Shown here in pieces: positions 53,712-59,281 of a stretch of 64,000 nt of DNA. The notes under the pieces are model-generated. The model ran no database searches, was not told where the DNA came from, and saw nothing but the letters and a program-made list of their open reading frames with translations. The DNA comes from Stakelama portus (lineage in GTDB: Bacteria > Pseudomonadota > Alphaproteobacteria > Sphingomonadales > Sphingomonadaceae): positions 930,001 to 994,000 of the forward strand of contig NZ_QFZL01000001.1 in the NCBI RefSeq assembly GCF_003171655.1, written 5' to 3'. The translations under genes and the position numbers were made by a program. Numbering within the stretch: the first letter of the stretch is position 1; each line of letters starts with the position of its first letter.

Positions 53712-55970
53712 ATGGAGCCTGTTGTGGACCCTGGAGTGACATCTCCCCGGCGAAAGCGCTTCGGCGTAACGGCGGCAGTTGAACTCGGAGTTCTGATCCT
53801 CGCGCTCGTGATGGGCGTCGTCACCTATATGGTGATCACGCGCGCGGATGCCGCGGGCCAGGTCGTGGGACCGGCCATCAGCGCGCTGTTGCTGCTCGGC
53901 AATCTCGTGCCGCTCGTCGCGCTGATCGTGCTGATCGGTCGCCGCATTGCCAAGCATCGGGCCGCCAAGTCATCGGTCGCCGGGGGCGGAAGGCTCCATG
54001 TCCGGCTGGTCGCGCTTTTTTCGGTAATCGCCAGCGTGCCGATCATCCTGACCGTGATCGCGGCGTCGACGATGTTCCATTCGAACACGCAATTCTGGCT
54101 GACCGGCCGTGCGGCGAATGCAATCGACGATGCCATCAGCCTGGCCAAGGAAGGGCAGAATCTGATCGCCCAGCGCTGGGGCGGGGAGGCGCGCCAGATT
54201 ACGCTGGATATCGCCAAATATTATCCCCGTGTTCCCACCGATTCGGCGGAATTCCAGTCGTTTTTCGATCAGCAGACCTATTTCCGCAATCTCGAGCAAT
54301 CGGTGCTGTTCACCTATGAACCCGGCAAGAAGCTGCGCGTCCTCTATCTGTTCAATCCGCCCGAAGAGGCGGCGTTTCTCCAACGCGTCGATCCGTCGCT
54401 GCTCGATACGCTGACGGTCGATTCAACGCCCGACGTCTATCTGACCGCCGACACCATCTGGGTCGTGGCCAAGGTGCCGAAGGTGCCCAATCTCTATCTC
54501 TACGCCGGGACCAGCGTGAATGCCGAGTTCCTGAACAAGCAGCTGGTTTCCGCCGAATCGATCACGCGCGAATATGAAGCGATTCAGGCGCGGGCACGCG
54601 GCGTGCAGATGCAGTTCAATGCCGCCTTGTTCGTCGTCGCGCTGCTGATCGTCGGCTTTACCATGCTGATCGCGCTGGCCGTTGCCGACCGGCTCGTGCG
54701 CCCGATCGACAGGCTGGTCGATGCCGCAGGCAGCGTTGCCGAAGGCGATCTGAGCGCGCGCGTCCCCGTTTCGGCGGCGAGGGACGAAATCGATACGCTG
54801 GGCGTTGCGTTCAACAGCATGACCGAGCGGTTGCAGGAACAGACATCGGCGCTGGTCGACGCCAACCTTCAGCTCGAAAGCCGCCGCGCGCTGATCGAAG
54901 CGGTGATGTCGGGCGTGACCGCCGGCGTCGTTTCGATCGGTCCCGACCGGCGCATTCAGCTGATCAACGATTCCGCGCGCATCCTGCTGCATATCGGCGA
55001 GACCGAGCCGGTGGGACATGCGCTTGCCGACGTCGCTCCGGAACTCGACACCCTGCTCGACAGCGGCGACCGCGAGGCGATCGTTCAGATGACCACCGGC
55101 GGCGAGGCGCGCACGCTCGCGGTCAAGGTCACGCGCGATGAAAGCGGTCAGGTGCTGACTTTCGACGACATTACCCAGCAATTGCTCGATCAACGGCGCG
55201 CCGCATGGTCCGACGTCGCCCGGCGCATCGCGCACGAGATCAAGAATCCGCTGACGCCCATTCAGCTCGCCGCCGAACGGCTCCAGCGCCGCTATGGCCG
55301 CAAGCTGGAAGAGGATGAGGGGACCTTTGCCCGGCTGACCGACACGATTGTCCGTCAGGTCGGCGATCTGCGCCGGATGGTCGACGAATTTTCCTCCTTC
55401 GCGCGGATGCCCAAACCGGTTTTCCGCGAAGAATCACTGCTCGATATCGCGCGTCAGGCGATGTTCCTCCACGAAGTCGCGCATCCGGGCATCCGTTTCC
55501 ATGTCGAAGCCGAAGAGGATCTGCCGGCGTTCGTCTGCGACCGTCGCCAGATCGGCCAGGCGCTGACCAATGTGGTCAAGAACGCCGTCGAGGCAGTCGA
55601 GGCGCGCGAGGAAAATGCCGAACCGGGCGAGATCCGCATGACCGTCGCGGCGGGCGAGGGGCATTCGCTCCTTGTCGAAGTCGCCGACAACGGGATTGGC
55701 CTGCCGGTCGAACGCGACCGGATCGTCGAACCCTATATGACGACGCGCAGCCGCGGCACCGGGCTTGGCCTCGCGATCGTCAAGAAGATCATCGAAGAAC
55801 ATTTCGGCACGATCGCCTTCGCCGACCGGCCTCAGGGCGGCACGGTGGTGCGCATGGTCTTCGATACCACGCTTTTGTCGCATCTCGCGACCGAAGCGAG
55901 TGAAGAAGACGGGAAGGGGAATGAACCCCGTCCCGTCGCGCTTACCCGCAATGAAAGTGGACGCTCATGA
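53712..55970 (+). CDS. ntrY: membrane sensor histidine kinase NtrY
   Basis: 752 residues. Several N-terminal membrane helices (about 18-40, 47-70, 85-107) precede a large extracytoplasmic region, another helix near 300-320, a HAMP domain (RPIDRLVDAAGSVAEGDLSARVP), a PAS-like region, the dimerisation motif with H508 in VARRIAHEIKNPLTP, and the ATPase domain (NVVKNAVEAVEA, VADNGIGLP, RGTGLGLAIVKKII). It senses redox or nitrogen cues and pairs with NtrX. ATG at 53712 is preferred. The TGA overlaps the ntrX ATG. Confidence 0.93.
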   Translation: MEPVVDPGVTSPRRKRFGVTAAVELGVLILALVMGVVTYMVITRADAAGQVVGPAISALLLLGNLVPLVALIVLIGRRIAKHRAAKSSVAGGGRLHVRLVALFSVIASVPIILTVIAASTMFHSNTQFWLTGRAANAIDDAISLAKEGQNLIAQRWGGEARQITLDIAKYYPRVPTDSAEFQSFFDQQTYFRNLEQSVLFTYEPGKKLRVLYLFNPPEEAAFLQRVDPSLLDTLTVDSTPDVYLTADTIWVVAKVPKVPNLYLYAGTSVNAEFLNKQLVSAESITREYEAIQARARGVQMQFNAALFVVALLIVGFTMLIALAVADRLVRPIDRLVDAAGSVAEGDLSARVPVSAARDEIDTLGVAFNSMTERLQEQTSALVDANLQLESRRALIEAVMSGVTAGVVSIGPDRRIQLINDSARILLHIGETEPVGHALADVAPELDTLLDSGDREAIVQMTTGGEARTLAVKVTRDESGQVLTFDDITQQLLDQRRAAWSDVARRIAHEIKNPLTPIQLAAERLQRRYGRKLEEDEGTFARLTDTIVRQVGDLRRMVDEFSSFARMPKPVFREESLLDIARQAMFLHEVAHPGIRFHVEAEEDLPAFVCDRRQIGQALTNVVKNAVEAVEAREENAEPGEIRMTVAAGEGHSLLVEVADNGIGLPVERDRIVEPYMTTRSRGTGLGLAIVKKIIEEHFGTIAFADRPQGGTVVRMVFDTTLLSHLATEASEEDGKGNEPRPVALTRNESGRS

Positions 55971-57352
55971 CACTCGACATCCTCGTCGTCGACGACGAAC
56001 GCGACATTCGCGAGCTGGTCTCCGGCGTGCTCGAAGATGAAGGCTATCAGACGCGCGGCGCCGCCGACAGCACTGCCGCGCTCGAAGCCATTGCCGAGCG
56101 GCGCCCGTCGCTGGTTCTGCTCGATGTTTGGTTGCAGGGATCGAAGCTCGATGGGCTGGATCTGCTCGACGAGATCAAGCGGCGCGATCCTTCGATCCCG
56201 GTGCTTGTGATTTCGGGGCACGGCAATCTCGACACCGCAGTGGCGGCGATCCGGCGGGGCGCATCCGATTTCATCGAAAAGCCGTTCGAGGCCGAGCGGC
56301 TGCTGCTGATGGTCGAGCGCGCGACGGAGACCGAACGGCTGCGCCGCGAAGTCGCTTCGCTGCGCGCAACGGTGGGGTTCGAAGCGGACCTGACCGGAAA
56401 TTCGAGTGCGATCAACACCGTTCGCGCGACTCTGAAACGAGTGGCGTCGACGGGAAGCCGCGTGCTGATCAATGGCGGGCCGGGAACCGGCAAGGAGGTG
56501 GCGGCGCGGCTGCTCCACGGGTGGAGCCAGCGCGCCGGCGCGCCGTTCATCATCGCCAGCGCCGCGCGCATGACCCCCGAACGTGTCGAAGAGGAATTGT
56601 TCGGTGTGGAAGAGGGCGGCGATCTGGTGCGCCCCGGCCTGCTCGAACAGGCGCATGGCGGCACCTTGTTCCTCGACGAAATCGCCGACATGCCGGTCGC
56701 GACCCAGGCGCGCATTCTGCGCGTGCTGACCGATCAGAGCTTCTCGCGGATCGGTGGCCAGCGGACCGTGAAAGTGGATGTCCGGGTCGTTTCCGCGACG
56801 TCGCGCGATCTGATGGGCGAAATCGCGGCGGGGAATTTCCGCGAGGATCTCTATTATCGGCTCAATGTCGTGCCGGTCACCATTCCGGCGCTGGCCGAAC
56901 GGCGCGAGGATATTCCCGTGCTGGTCGAACATTTCGTCGCGCATTATGCGCGCGAACGCCGCGTGCCGACGCCCGAAATCGCTTCCGACGCGCTGGTCGC
57001 GCTGCAAAGCTATGAATGGCCCGGCAACGTCCGCCAGCTGCGCAATGTGGTCGAACGCACGGTTATCCTGGCGCCCGGGGACCGGATCGGTCGCATCGAC
57101 CTCGATCTGCTTCCGCCCGAAGTGCTCGGCACCAGCAACCAGTCGGAAGGCGGCATGGGCACCAATGCGATCATGGGATCGCCGCTCAAGGAAGCACGCG
57201 AGACATTCGAACGCGAATATCTGCGCATCCAGATCCGCCGTTTTTCGGGAAATATCTCGCGGACGGCGAACTTTATCGGGATGGAGCGTTCGGCACTCCA
57301 TCGCAAGCTCAAGCTGCTGGGCATTACCGAGACGCGCGAGGACCGGAACTGA
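55967..57352 (+). CDS. ntrX: response regulator NtrX with altered sigma-54 loop
   Basis: 461 residues. Receiver with D53 (VLLDVWLQGSK), AAA+ domain with Walker A NGGPGTGKEVAARLLH and Walker B LFLDEIADMPVATQ. A C-terminal Fis-type HTH (SRTANFIGMERSALHRKL) follows. At the place of GAFTGA it reads ELFGVEEGGDLVRPGLLE, so the usual sigma-54 contact loop is missing, as in other alphaproteobacterial NtrX proteins as far as I recall. It may regulate without sigma-54. Coupled to ntrY. 151 bases separate it from hfq. Confidence 0.93.
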   Translation: MTLDILVVDDERDIRELVSGVLEDEGYQTRGAADSTAALEAIAERRPSLVLLDVWLQGSKLDGLDLLDEIKRRDPSIPVLVISGHGNLDTAVAAIRRGASDFIEKPFEAERLLLMVERATETERLRREVASLRATVGFEADLTGNSSAINTVRATLKRVASTGSRVLINGGPGTGKEVAARLLHGWSQRAGAPFIIASAARMTPERVEEELFGVEEGGDLVRPGLLEQAHGGTLFLDEIADMPVATQARILRVLTDQSFSRIGGQRTVKVDVRVVSATSRDLMGEIAAGNFREDLYYRLNVVPVTIPALAERREDIPVLVEHFVAHYARERRVPTPEIASDALVALQSYEWPGNVRQLRNVVERTVILAPGDRIGRIDLDLLPPEVLGTSNQSEGGMGTNAIMGSPLKEARETFEREYLRIQIRRFSGNISRTANFIGMERSALHRKLKLLGITETREDRN

Positions 57353-57480: not shown

Positions 57481-57503
57481 CAATAACAGAAGGAAAACGC
57501 GGC

Positions 57504-57995
57504 ATGGCAGAAAAGCAGACTTCGCTTCAGGACCTGTTTTTGAATTCCCTGCGCCGATCGAAGACTCCGGTGACCATGTTTCTGGTCAAGGGCGTCAAGC
57601 TTCAGGGCATCGTCACCTGGTTCGACAATTTCTCGGTGCTGCTGCGCCGCGACGGCCAGTCCCAGCTGATCTACAAGCATGCGATTTCCACCATCATGCC
57701 CGCCGGTGCGATGGACCTGCCCGCGCTTTTGGAAGCGGTGGGAGAACATCAGTCTAAGAACCCGGTTTTGCAGGAAATTTTCCTCAATGCGATCCGCAAG
57801 GCGCAGGAAAATGTCACGATGTTCCTGGTCAATGGCGTGATGCTGCAGGGCCAGATTGCGGGTTTTGACCTGTTCTGCATGCTGCTTCAGCGCGAAGGCA
57901 TGGCGCAACTCGTCTACAAGCACGCCGTTTCGACGATCCAGCCGGCCCATCCGCTGAATCTCGCCGAAGAGACGAACAGCTCGGACGACGATTGA
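57504..57995 (+). CDS. hfq: double-domain RNA chaperone Hfq
   Basis: 163 residues holding two complete Hfq (bacterial Sm-like) domains in one chain. Domain 1 is residues 8-67 and domain 2 is 89-148, with about 35 of 60 positions identical and a constant offset of 81. The Sm2 signature YKHA is at 57-60 and again at 138-141. Domain 1 keeps the usual RNA contacts (Q9, D10, R17-R18, K32, F43, K58-H59). Domain 2 has E91, R98-K99, M113 in place of the distal-face Lys, and L123 before F124. A 21-residue linker joins them, and the tail is acidic. Ordinary Hfq has one domain of about 80-100 residues and forms a hexamer. Three of these chains could make a pseudo-hexamer. Its TGA overlaps the hflX start. 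Confidence 0.95.
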
Positions 57996-59281
57996 GTACC
58001 GGATTCGATCGCGACGCCGATGATTTCGCACGCGGCGCGCGTGCCGTCGTCGTCTATCCCGATATCGGTGGATCGGCACGCGATGCCGATGCGCGGCTGG
58101 AGGAGACTGCCGGTCTCGCCGCCGCGATCGGGATCGACGTGGCCGAACGCACTGCATTCCGTATCCGCCAGCCAAAGCCGGGGACACTGATCGGCTCGGG
58201 CCAGGTCGAAATGCTCGCCGAAACGGTGCGCGATCACGAATTGCAACTTGCCGTGTTCGACGCGGCGCTGACGCCGATCCAGCAACGCAATCTGGAAAGC
58301 GCGCTCGGCTGCAAGGTGATCGACCGTACCGGGCTGATACTTGAGATTTTCGGCGAACGCGCACGCACTGCCGAGGGGCGGCTGCAGGTCGAACTCGCGC
58401 ATCTCGATTATCAGGCGGGGCGGCTGGTACGCAGCTGGACTCACCTTGAGCGCCAGCGTGGCGGCTTCGGCTTTCTGGGCGGACCCGGCGAAACCCAGAT
58501 CGAAGCCGATCGGCGGCTGATCCGCGATCGCATGGCGCGTTTGCGCCGCGAGCTCGATCAGGTCAGCCGCACCCGCACGCTGCAGCGCGACCGGCGCCAG
58601 CGTGCGCCCTGGCCCGTGATCGCGCTGGTCGGCTATACCAATGCCGGAAAATCGACGCTTTTCAATCGCCTGACAGGTGCCGACGTCATGGCGGAAAACC
58701 TGCTCTTCGCGACGCTCGACCCTACGCTGCGCCAGATTTCGCTGCCCGGCATCGACAAGGCGATCCTGTCGGACACCGTCGGTTTCGTCTCCGAACTGCC
58801 GACGCAACTCGTCGCGGCGTTCAAGGCGACGCTGGAAGAAGTGGTTTCGGCCGATCTGCTGATTCATGTCCGCGACATTTCGCATCCAGACAGCGAAGCG
58901 CAGCGCGCCGATGTCGAGAAAGTCCTGTCCGAAATCGGCGTCGACGAAACGACGCCGCGGATCGAAGCGTGGAACAAGATCGACCTGCTCGACGAAGAGC
59001 GCCGCGCGGAACTGCTCGCCGAAGCCGAGGGTCGCGAAGATCTGATGACGGTATCGGCTGTGACGGGGGAGGGCGTCGACGCGCTGCGCCGCGCCATGGC
59101 CGAACGGCTGACCACCGGCCATCGCCGCTATGTCGTTCGCCTCGACCCCGCCGATGGTGCGGGCGCCGCCTGGCTGCATCAGCATGGCGAAGTGCTGGAA
59201 CATTGGATGGACGAGGGGGATGCCCTGTACGAAGTGCGCATGGCGCCGCGCGACCATGAACGGTTTCTGTCGCGGACCTGA
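57992..59281 (+). CDS. hflX: ribosome-splitting GTPase HflX
   Basis: 429 residues. The GTPase splits stalled or stressed 70S ribosomes. An N-terminal nucleotide-binding-like domain ([16 protein letters not shown], the HflX motif) precedes a helical part with [19 protein letters not shown]. The G domain has [16 protein letters not shown], switch [13 protein letters not shown] and NKID. Start is TTG at 57992, overlapping the hfq TGA in the form TTGA, so hflX is probably translated by re-initiation after Hfq. The hfq-hflX pair is conserved across proteobacteria. Confidence 0.93.

Follow-up and report, generated by a model that had tools for sequence, protein, structure and literature searches.

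A double-domain Hfq in Stakelama portus and its family carries fixed, complementary residue differences between its two halves

The window analyzed here is a 64,000-nucleotide stretch of the Stakelama portus genome (contig NZ_QFZL01000001.1, positions 930,001 to 994,000), in which hfq is a single open reading frame on the forward strand (57504..57995, stop codon included) whose 163 residues encode two complete Hfq domains. The gene was identified from the open reading frame list, the profiles PF17209 and NF010691, and a profile search of the genome. A candidate Shine-Dalgarno-like sequence, AGAAGGA (57488..57494, forward strand), was seen by eye 9 bases ahead of the ATG. The N-half Hfq (Sm-like) domain spans residues 8 to 69 (57525..57710) and the C-half Hfq (Sm-like) domain residues 89 to 151 (57768..57956); by alignment, the linker between them covers residues 67 to 88 (57702..57767), where AlphaFold2 predicted a short helix at residues 72 to 79. 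The alignment also places an acidic tail after the C-half (residues 148 to 163; 57945..57992), with DDD as its last residues, and none after the N-half; all of these features lie on the forward strand, as do both neighboring genes. Upstream is a gene for an NtrX-type sigma-54 response regulator (55967..57352; profile match), and downstream is that of the GTPase HflX (57992..59281; open reading frame list and profile match), which has a TTG start as listed. With that start, the hflX frame and the end of hfq, stop codon included, share 4 bases (57992 to 57995), an arrangement that would allow translational coupling. Promoter and terminator scans around hfq gave no match. An hflX homologue was present in 94/94 hfq loci examined, and an ntrX homologue was found in 63/63 hfq loci of the window's family and in 0/31 loci of other families. 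The upstream neighborhood of hfq differs between the family loci and those of other families (L003-L032 and L038), the outgroup flanks being mostly 1.5 kb.

Each half of the protein is recognizable as Hfq in its own right. PF17209 matched the whole protein twice (191.7 bits), and the halves searched alone scored 104.9 bits (N-half) and 90.9 bits (C-half) against a cut-off of 27. The full-length model NF010691 matched residues 1 to 161 at model positions 16 to 175 with 287.5 bits (cut-off 270). This NCBIfam entry (PRK14091.1; 176 positions; "RNA chaperone Hfq") is a model of the double form and, together with Yang et al. 2010 (PMC2877685), establishes that the double Hfq is already known. The available text of that paper reports two Sm-like domains in ZMO0347 of Zymomonas mobilis, states that similar proteins in six other Sphingomonadales species share the two-domain layout, and poses the question of whether three proteins build a ring; an earlier reading of the window made from the sequence only (the sequence-only reading) was thus right to suspect that its own sighting was not the first. 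ZMO0347 has a layout like that of the window protein, with two Hfq/Sm-like domains per chain and no difference in kind; the half-specific residue asymmetry that we report below is not described in the text of PMC2877685 that was available. Later Z. mobilis papers, as far as their accessible sections go, link hfq to stress tolerance, and we found no mention of the two-domain layout in the accessible sections of PMC7546472 or PMC9797736. A search of the PDB by sequence found no solved structure of the double form, the 35 distinct matching sequences being 63 to 114 residues long. In the assembly of the window's own genome (18 contigs), the only two PF17209 matches were the two halves of this one open frame, and the same search found no second hfq elsewhere. 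The best explanation is that the double form serves this sphingomonad as its normal RNA chaperone and is the one Hfq that it has.

Comparison of the two halves points to a real and old duplication. At a register of 81 residues, the halves were identical at 35/61 positions and different at 26/61; other registers (75 to 80 and 82 to 87) gave 1 to 5 identities, and the maximum over 10,000 shuffles of one half was 13. BLASTP of half against half aligned 69 positions with 37 identities (E = 4e-28). The motif YKHA, which includes the Sm2 motif YKH, is present in both halves, and its K56 was invariant among N-halves (170/170) and occurred in 168/170 C-halves, with gaps in the remaining 2 (58 survey proteins and 112 among the matches listed in a scan of named genomes). 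The layout proposed in the sequence-only reading, with two Hfq domains in one 163-residue chain at a spacing of 81 and YKHA twice, therefore holds, and the profile search of each half that it had called for returned the Hfq family for both. The 35 shared residues use the same codon at 18 positions and another codon at 17, and these differing codons argue for an old duplication rather than recent copying or an assembly error. As grounds for refutation, the same reading had named a frame error, a chimeric assembly that joined two separate hfq genes, and a doubling seen in this assembly only. We consider such an artefact vanishingly improbable, given that both domains lay in one frame in 58/58 double-form loci read in our order survey (the window's genome included) and that the scan of named genomes, which looked for codons spelling LVKGVKLQG, a motif of the N-half, listed at least 119 loci, of which 115 encoded a double Hfq and the other 4 ended before the C-half. 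The 26 residues at which the halves differ likewise speak against it. Artefact, chimera, and recent duplication were thus ruled out by independent assemblies, codon differences, and the comparison of half with half.

The double form is common to nearly all sampled members of the window's family. The order survey covered 196 genomes searched with the Pfam Hfq profile, 113 of them from the window's family (its own genome included) and 83 from seven other families. Two Hfq matches were found in 108/113 family genomes and one in 5/113; in the other families there was one match in 76/83, two on separate contigs in 1/83, and none in 6/83 (five of these genomes being <80% complete). Proteins were read from 58 of the 108 two-match genomes, spread over genera, with the genus coded g12 sampled fully. 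In a class survey with NF010691, a search model that could miss an independent fusion, 5/385 genomes exceeded the cut-off, each of them a member of the window's family and one of them the window's own genome, and 380 fell below. A phylum sample of 160 genomes included six family genomes with two matches each, and none of its 98 Hfq-bearing non-family genomes had two Hfq domains in one place. Outside the family, the order, class, and phylum samples yielded no double form. Two non-family genomes, G596 (phylum sample) and G001 (order survey), had two unfused Hfq matches on different contigs, which are second copies or fragments; in G001 one of the matches is partial. Single-domain Hfq is retained in five family genomes (L033-L037, from G053, G105, G121, G133, and G155). 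Among the loci listed by the scan of named genomes, 80 titles belonged to sphingomonads or to MAGs with broad names only; the closest double Hfq among the matches listed was that of Sphingomonas sp. dw_22 (L140; 93% identical), and four Sphingopyxis loci listed there also had the double form.

In a tree of HflX and NtrX from 43 chosen rows, the 28 double-form genomes formed a single clade (100/100). The five single-domain members of the family branched apart from this clade but within the family (100/98), and the ten genomes from other families fell outside the family. The ten outgroup rows contributed HflX only, and the rows omitted included L003 and L038 as well as two with long branches, L005 and L007; in a first tree built from HflX (93 rows; the short L024 left out), L033 grouped with a long-branched outgroup row and L067 was unplaced. 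A tree of the Hfq domains themselves, from 49 of the 58 pairs, recovered all N-halves as one clade (100/95) and all C-halves as another (99/97). Nine mostly fast-evolving proteins (L082 and L089-L096) were left out of this tree, and a version with all 58 pairs and E. coli Hfq had poor resolution and put one N-half (L092) in the wrong place. These results show that the double form arose once, and the double-form clade together with the separate N and C clades indicates one duplication-fusion within the family, the halves of which have not been homogenized since. The proposal of internal duplication followed by divergence is therefore upheld by the 49 domain pairs and by the single double-form clade of the neighbor-gene tree. 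Given that L033-L037 fall outside the double clade in the neighbor-gene tree, single-domain Hfq looks ancestral in these genomes rather than reverted. In the free domain tree, the N-halves lay beside the single-domain proteins of the family (91/74). A constraint uniting N- and C-halves without the family's single-domain proteins was 20 log units worse and was not rejected (p-AU 0.27), and one that set N-halves, C-halves, and family single-domain proteins against the rest was equal to the free tree; since these constrained trees are tolerated, the joining point of the C-halves is not fixed by the 58 columns. Position 24 (E. coli Hfq numbering by alignment, here and for all positions below) was Met in 5/5 single-domain proteins of the family and Val in 30/31 of those from other families, and Met also occurred in 141/170 N-halves and 151/170 C-halves (58 survey proteins and 112 among the matches listed). 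As a shared sequence marker, this residue argues that the origin lay within the family.

We compared the 58 double proteins with 36 single-domain proteins (5 from the family and 31 from other families). Because the 58 proteins had been found with an Hfq profile, the counts at positions 28 and 31 are not circular. At position 28, all single-domain proteins (36/36) and all C-halves (58/58) had Asn, and all N-halves (58/58) had Lys; the corresponding codons in the window protein are those of Lys29 (57588..57590) and of Asn110 (57831..57833), the latter being the ancestral Asn retained in the C-half. Position 31 was Lys in 36/36 single-domain proteins, so that every sampled subunit of ordinary Hfq carries Asn28 and Lys31 together. 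The N-halves had Lys (52) or Arg (6) at position 31, and the window protein retains Lys32 there (57597..57599). Among the 58 C-halves, this position was Met in 54, Ala in 2, Leu in 1, Arg in 1 (L092), and Lys in none; the window residue is Met113 (57840..57842). The C-halves from the scan of named genomes, a set preselected for Lys28 in the N-half and free to vary in the C-half, had Asn28 and Met31 in 112/112 unique proteins among the matches listed. When a residue was required to reach at least 90% in both sets compared, N28K was the sole shift of the N-half, and K31M (54/58) and M63Q (55/58) were the sole shifts of the C-half. Residue asymmetry between the halves is thus fixed. K28 was one of 17 positions invariant among the N-halves of the 58 proteins, and Gly29, Trp38, Asp40, and His57 of the N-half each varied somewhere. 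Further changes in the C-halves were found at positions 50, 51, and 54, which together with M63Q lie in a strand region that we take to be the subunit interface. We found no report of this fixed, complementary asymmetry of the halves in the literature searched (main texts of open-licence PMC papers, as far as these were available).

We considered that this asymmetry could be neutral, with the chain forming the same ring as that proposed below: a chance duplication would have become fixed and the C-half would have drifted under weaker constraint, with no new chaperone property gained. The C-halves are indeed the less conserved (mean pairwise identity of 66.1%, compared to 79.9% for the N-halves), and nine ancestral residues survive in no more than 20% of them, as such drift would predict. 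However, K28 was invariant in 58/58 N-halves, those of the fast-evolving proteins included, and fixation of K31M and M63Q at the levels observed is not expected from drift alone. We regard a neutral history as rather unlikely.

The halves also differ in charge. The mean number of basic residues at the rim positions 16, 17, and 19 was 3.00 of 3 in the single-domain proteins (n = 36), 2.95 in the N-halves, and 1.10 in the C-halves (n = 58). The window protein has a fully basic rim in its N-half (Arg17, Arg18, and Lys20; 3/3) and a partial loss in its C-half, where Arg98 and Lys99 are kept and the third position is Gln101 (2/3). Mean net core charge was +2.9 for single-domain proteins of other families, +3.2 for those of the family, +3.8 for N-halves, and -0.3 for C-halves. 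An acidic tail (charge -2 or lower) ends 35/36 single-domain proteins and follows the C-half in 52/58 double proteins, the six without it being L091-L096. After the N-half there is instead a linker of 15 to 24 residues with a median charge of 0 (170 proteins: 58 from the survey and 112 among the matches listed). Hfq of Caulobacter crescentus (PDB 6gwk), which in the structure alignment shares 72% identity with the N-half of the window protein, represents the single-domain alphaproteobacterial type, with the hfq-hflX setting and the acidic tail found in the window. The available part of PMC6561178 describes how the acidic tip of Caulobacter Hfq sits against the rim of the neighboring protomer (R18, K19, and K21) and competes with RNA; these residues align with E. 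coli positions 16, 17, and 19.

AlphaFold2 was given 78 double forms, namely, the window protein and 77 named-genome proteins among the matches listed, after a 92% identity filter. The single chain was predicted with confidence as a compact structure (mean pLDDT of 90.6, pTM of 0.85) with the helix at residues 72 to 79 in the linker. In our judgment, the whole-chain pTM favors a defined arrangement of the two halves in the model, given that loosely tied domains would be expected to score clearly lower. Both halves of the predicted model have the Sm-like fold: residues 5 to 77 matched 6gwk (Z 10.0) and residues 86 to 154 matched 2ylb (Z 9.1), and the matches listed in the fold searches were single-domain Hfq chains. 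We consider it rather probable that three of the 163-residue chains close into one six-domain Hfq-type ring of about 55 kDa. N- and C-halves would take turns around this ring, and with them the distal lysines, the rims, and the tails. In favor of this arrangement, each half is a complete Hfq domain that has the YKH motif, and the linker is short. A different assembly would have six chains, with the N-halves in an ordinary ring and the C-halves either hanging outside it or forming a second, stacked ring; in its favor, the N-halves alone hold nearly all of the ordinary Hfq residues. The short linker and the high whole-chain pTM favor side-by-side halves, as far as a model can tell, and M63Q with the C-half changes at positions 50, 51, and 54 falls in the presumed interface strand, as expected if N-half meets C-half. 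We judge the six-chain assembly to be improbable.

Of the two kinds of subunit in the alternating ring of three chains, the N-half has kept the ordinary Hfq residues and gained one lysine on the distal face, which binds A-rich RNA. The C-half has lost the matching lysine of that face and, in many species, some of the basic patch on its rim. Each ring would then present three lysine-paired and three lysine-free distal positions; with a lysine pair on each N-half and no lysine on the C-halves, the number per ring would stay at six, on a face that had become three-fold. It would also present three well-charged annealing rims, each beside acidic tails able to auto-inhibit. Because each C-half is flanked by N-halves in such a ring, a tail would meet a basic rim in either direction. 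The rims that lose charge, those of the C-halves, would be the ones whose neighbors' tails became linkers, a matched loss suggested by the sequences. With acidic tails only after C-halves, beside the N-half rims, tails and rims would be matched three to three in a three-fold ring. We infer from these patterns the ring stoichiometry, the alternation, a tail docked at the rim of the N-half, and what this does to RNA. The idea of the sequence-only reading that one complex offers two different RNA surfaces fits the fixed differences between the halves. We see a roughly even chance that the ring is obligately three-fold with two functional classes of subunit, the N-half bearing the rim and a Lys28/31 pair (or Lys and Arg) and the C-half rarely bearing either distal residue, such that A-rich RNA would be read with a two-subunit period and not at six equal sites. 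Against the alternating ring as described above stand the C-half rim partly kept in the window protein, the tails lost in 6/58 proteins, and the single C-half with Arg31.

Work on single-domain Hfq bears on how large the effect of these changes could be. For the distal face of Pseudomonas aeruginosa Hfq, the available text of PMC8121710 reports that the K31 backbone nitrogen binds the phosphate of the A-nucleotide, and its simulations have the N28 backbone oxygen lining a third pocket; in the accessible part of PMC10628458, N28 reaches the second A-site through water. In E. coli, according to the sections available of a preprint (PMC12262471), K31A is mild for regulation; it reduces RIL-seq chimeras, and with R16A these are nearly lost. 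Given that K31A is mild and that the contacts of residue 28 are made through the backbone or water, the distal change may matter little, and the stronger effect of R16A on chimeras suggests that the rim effect may exceed the distal one. Reports from relatives are mixed. In Sphingopyxis granuli TFA, the review PMC6563040, as available, describes Hfq-dependent repression of thnR by the sRNA SuhB; in this genus, the double form is known from the four loci mentioned above. In Z. mobilis, the accessible text of PMC7064620 reports that Hfq matters for growth and that the sRNAs Zms4 and Zms6 neither bind Hfq in vitro nor pull it down, a result that speaks against a strong general role.

Ordinary alphaproteobacterial Hfq is made of six equal subunits, each a chain with a single domain, and bears six tails. 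The eukaryotic Sm/Lsm hetero-heptamers, built from seven separate chains (background in the available text of PMC2877685), also arrange Sm subunits that are not identical into a ring; we draw this only as an analogy in how such a ring works and claim no membership. If the alternating ring is correct, it would be a natural experiment on how many of the six equivalent Hfq sites and tails are needed, since having the halves in one chain means that exactly three of six subunits can be changed, which is hard to do in an ordinary homohexamer. It would also be a caution, in sRNA work on these industrial and pollutant-degrading species, against taking the sphingomonad protein as equivalent to that of E. 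coli. The complementary asymmetry of the halves makes the idea of an alternating ring directly testable, and the six fast-evolving proteins of genus code g12 (L091-L096) could serve as natural variants for such tests: they have lost the acidic tail, carry Gly in place of Trp38 and Arg in place of Lys31 in the N-half, and have diverged C-halves, and they keep Lys28 in the N-half.
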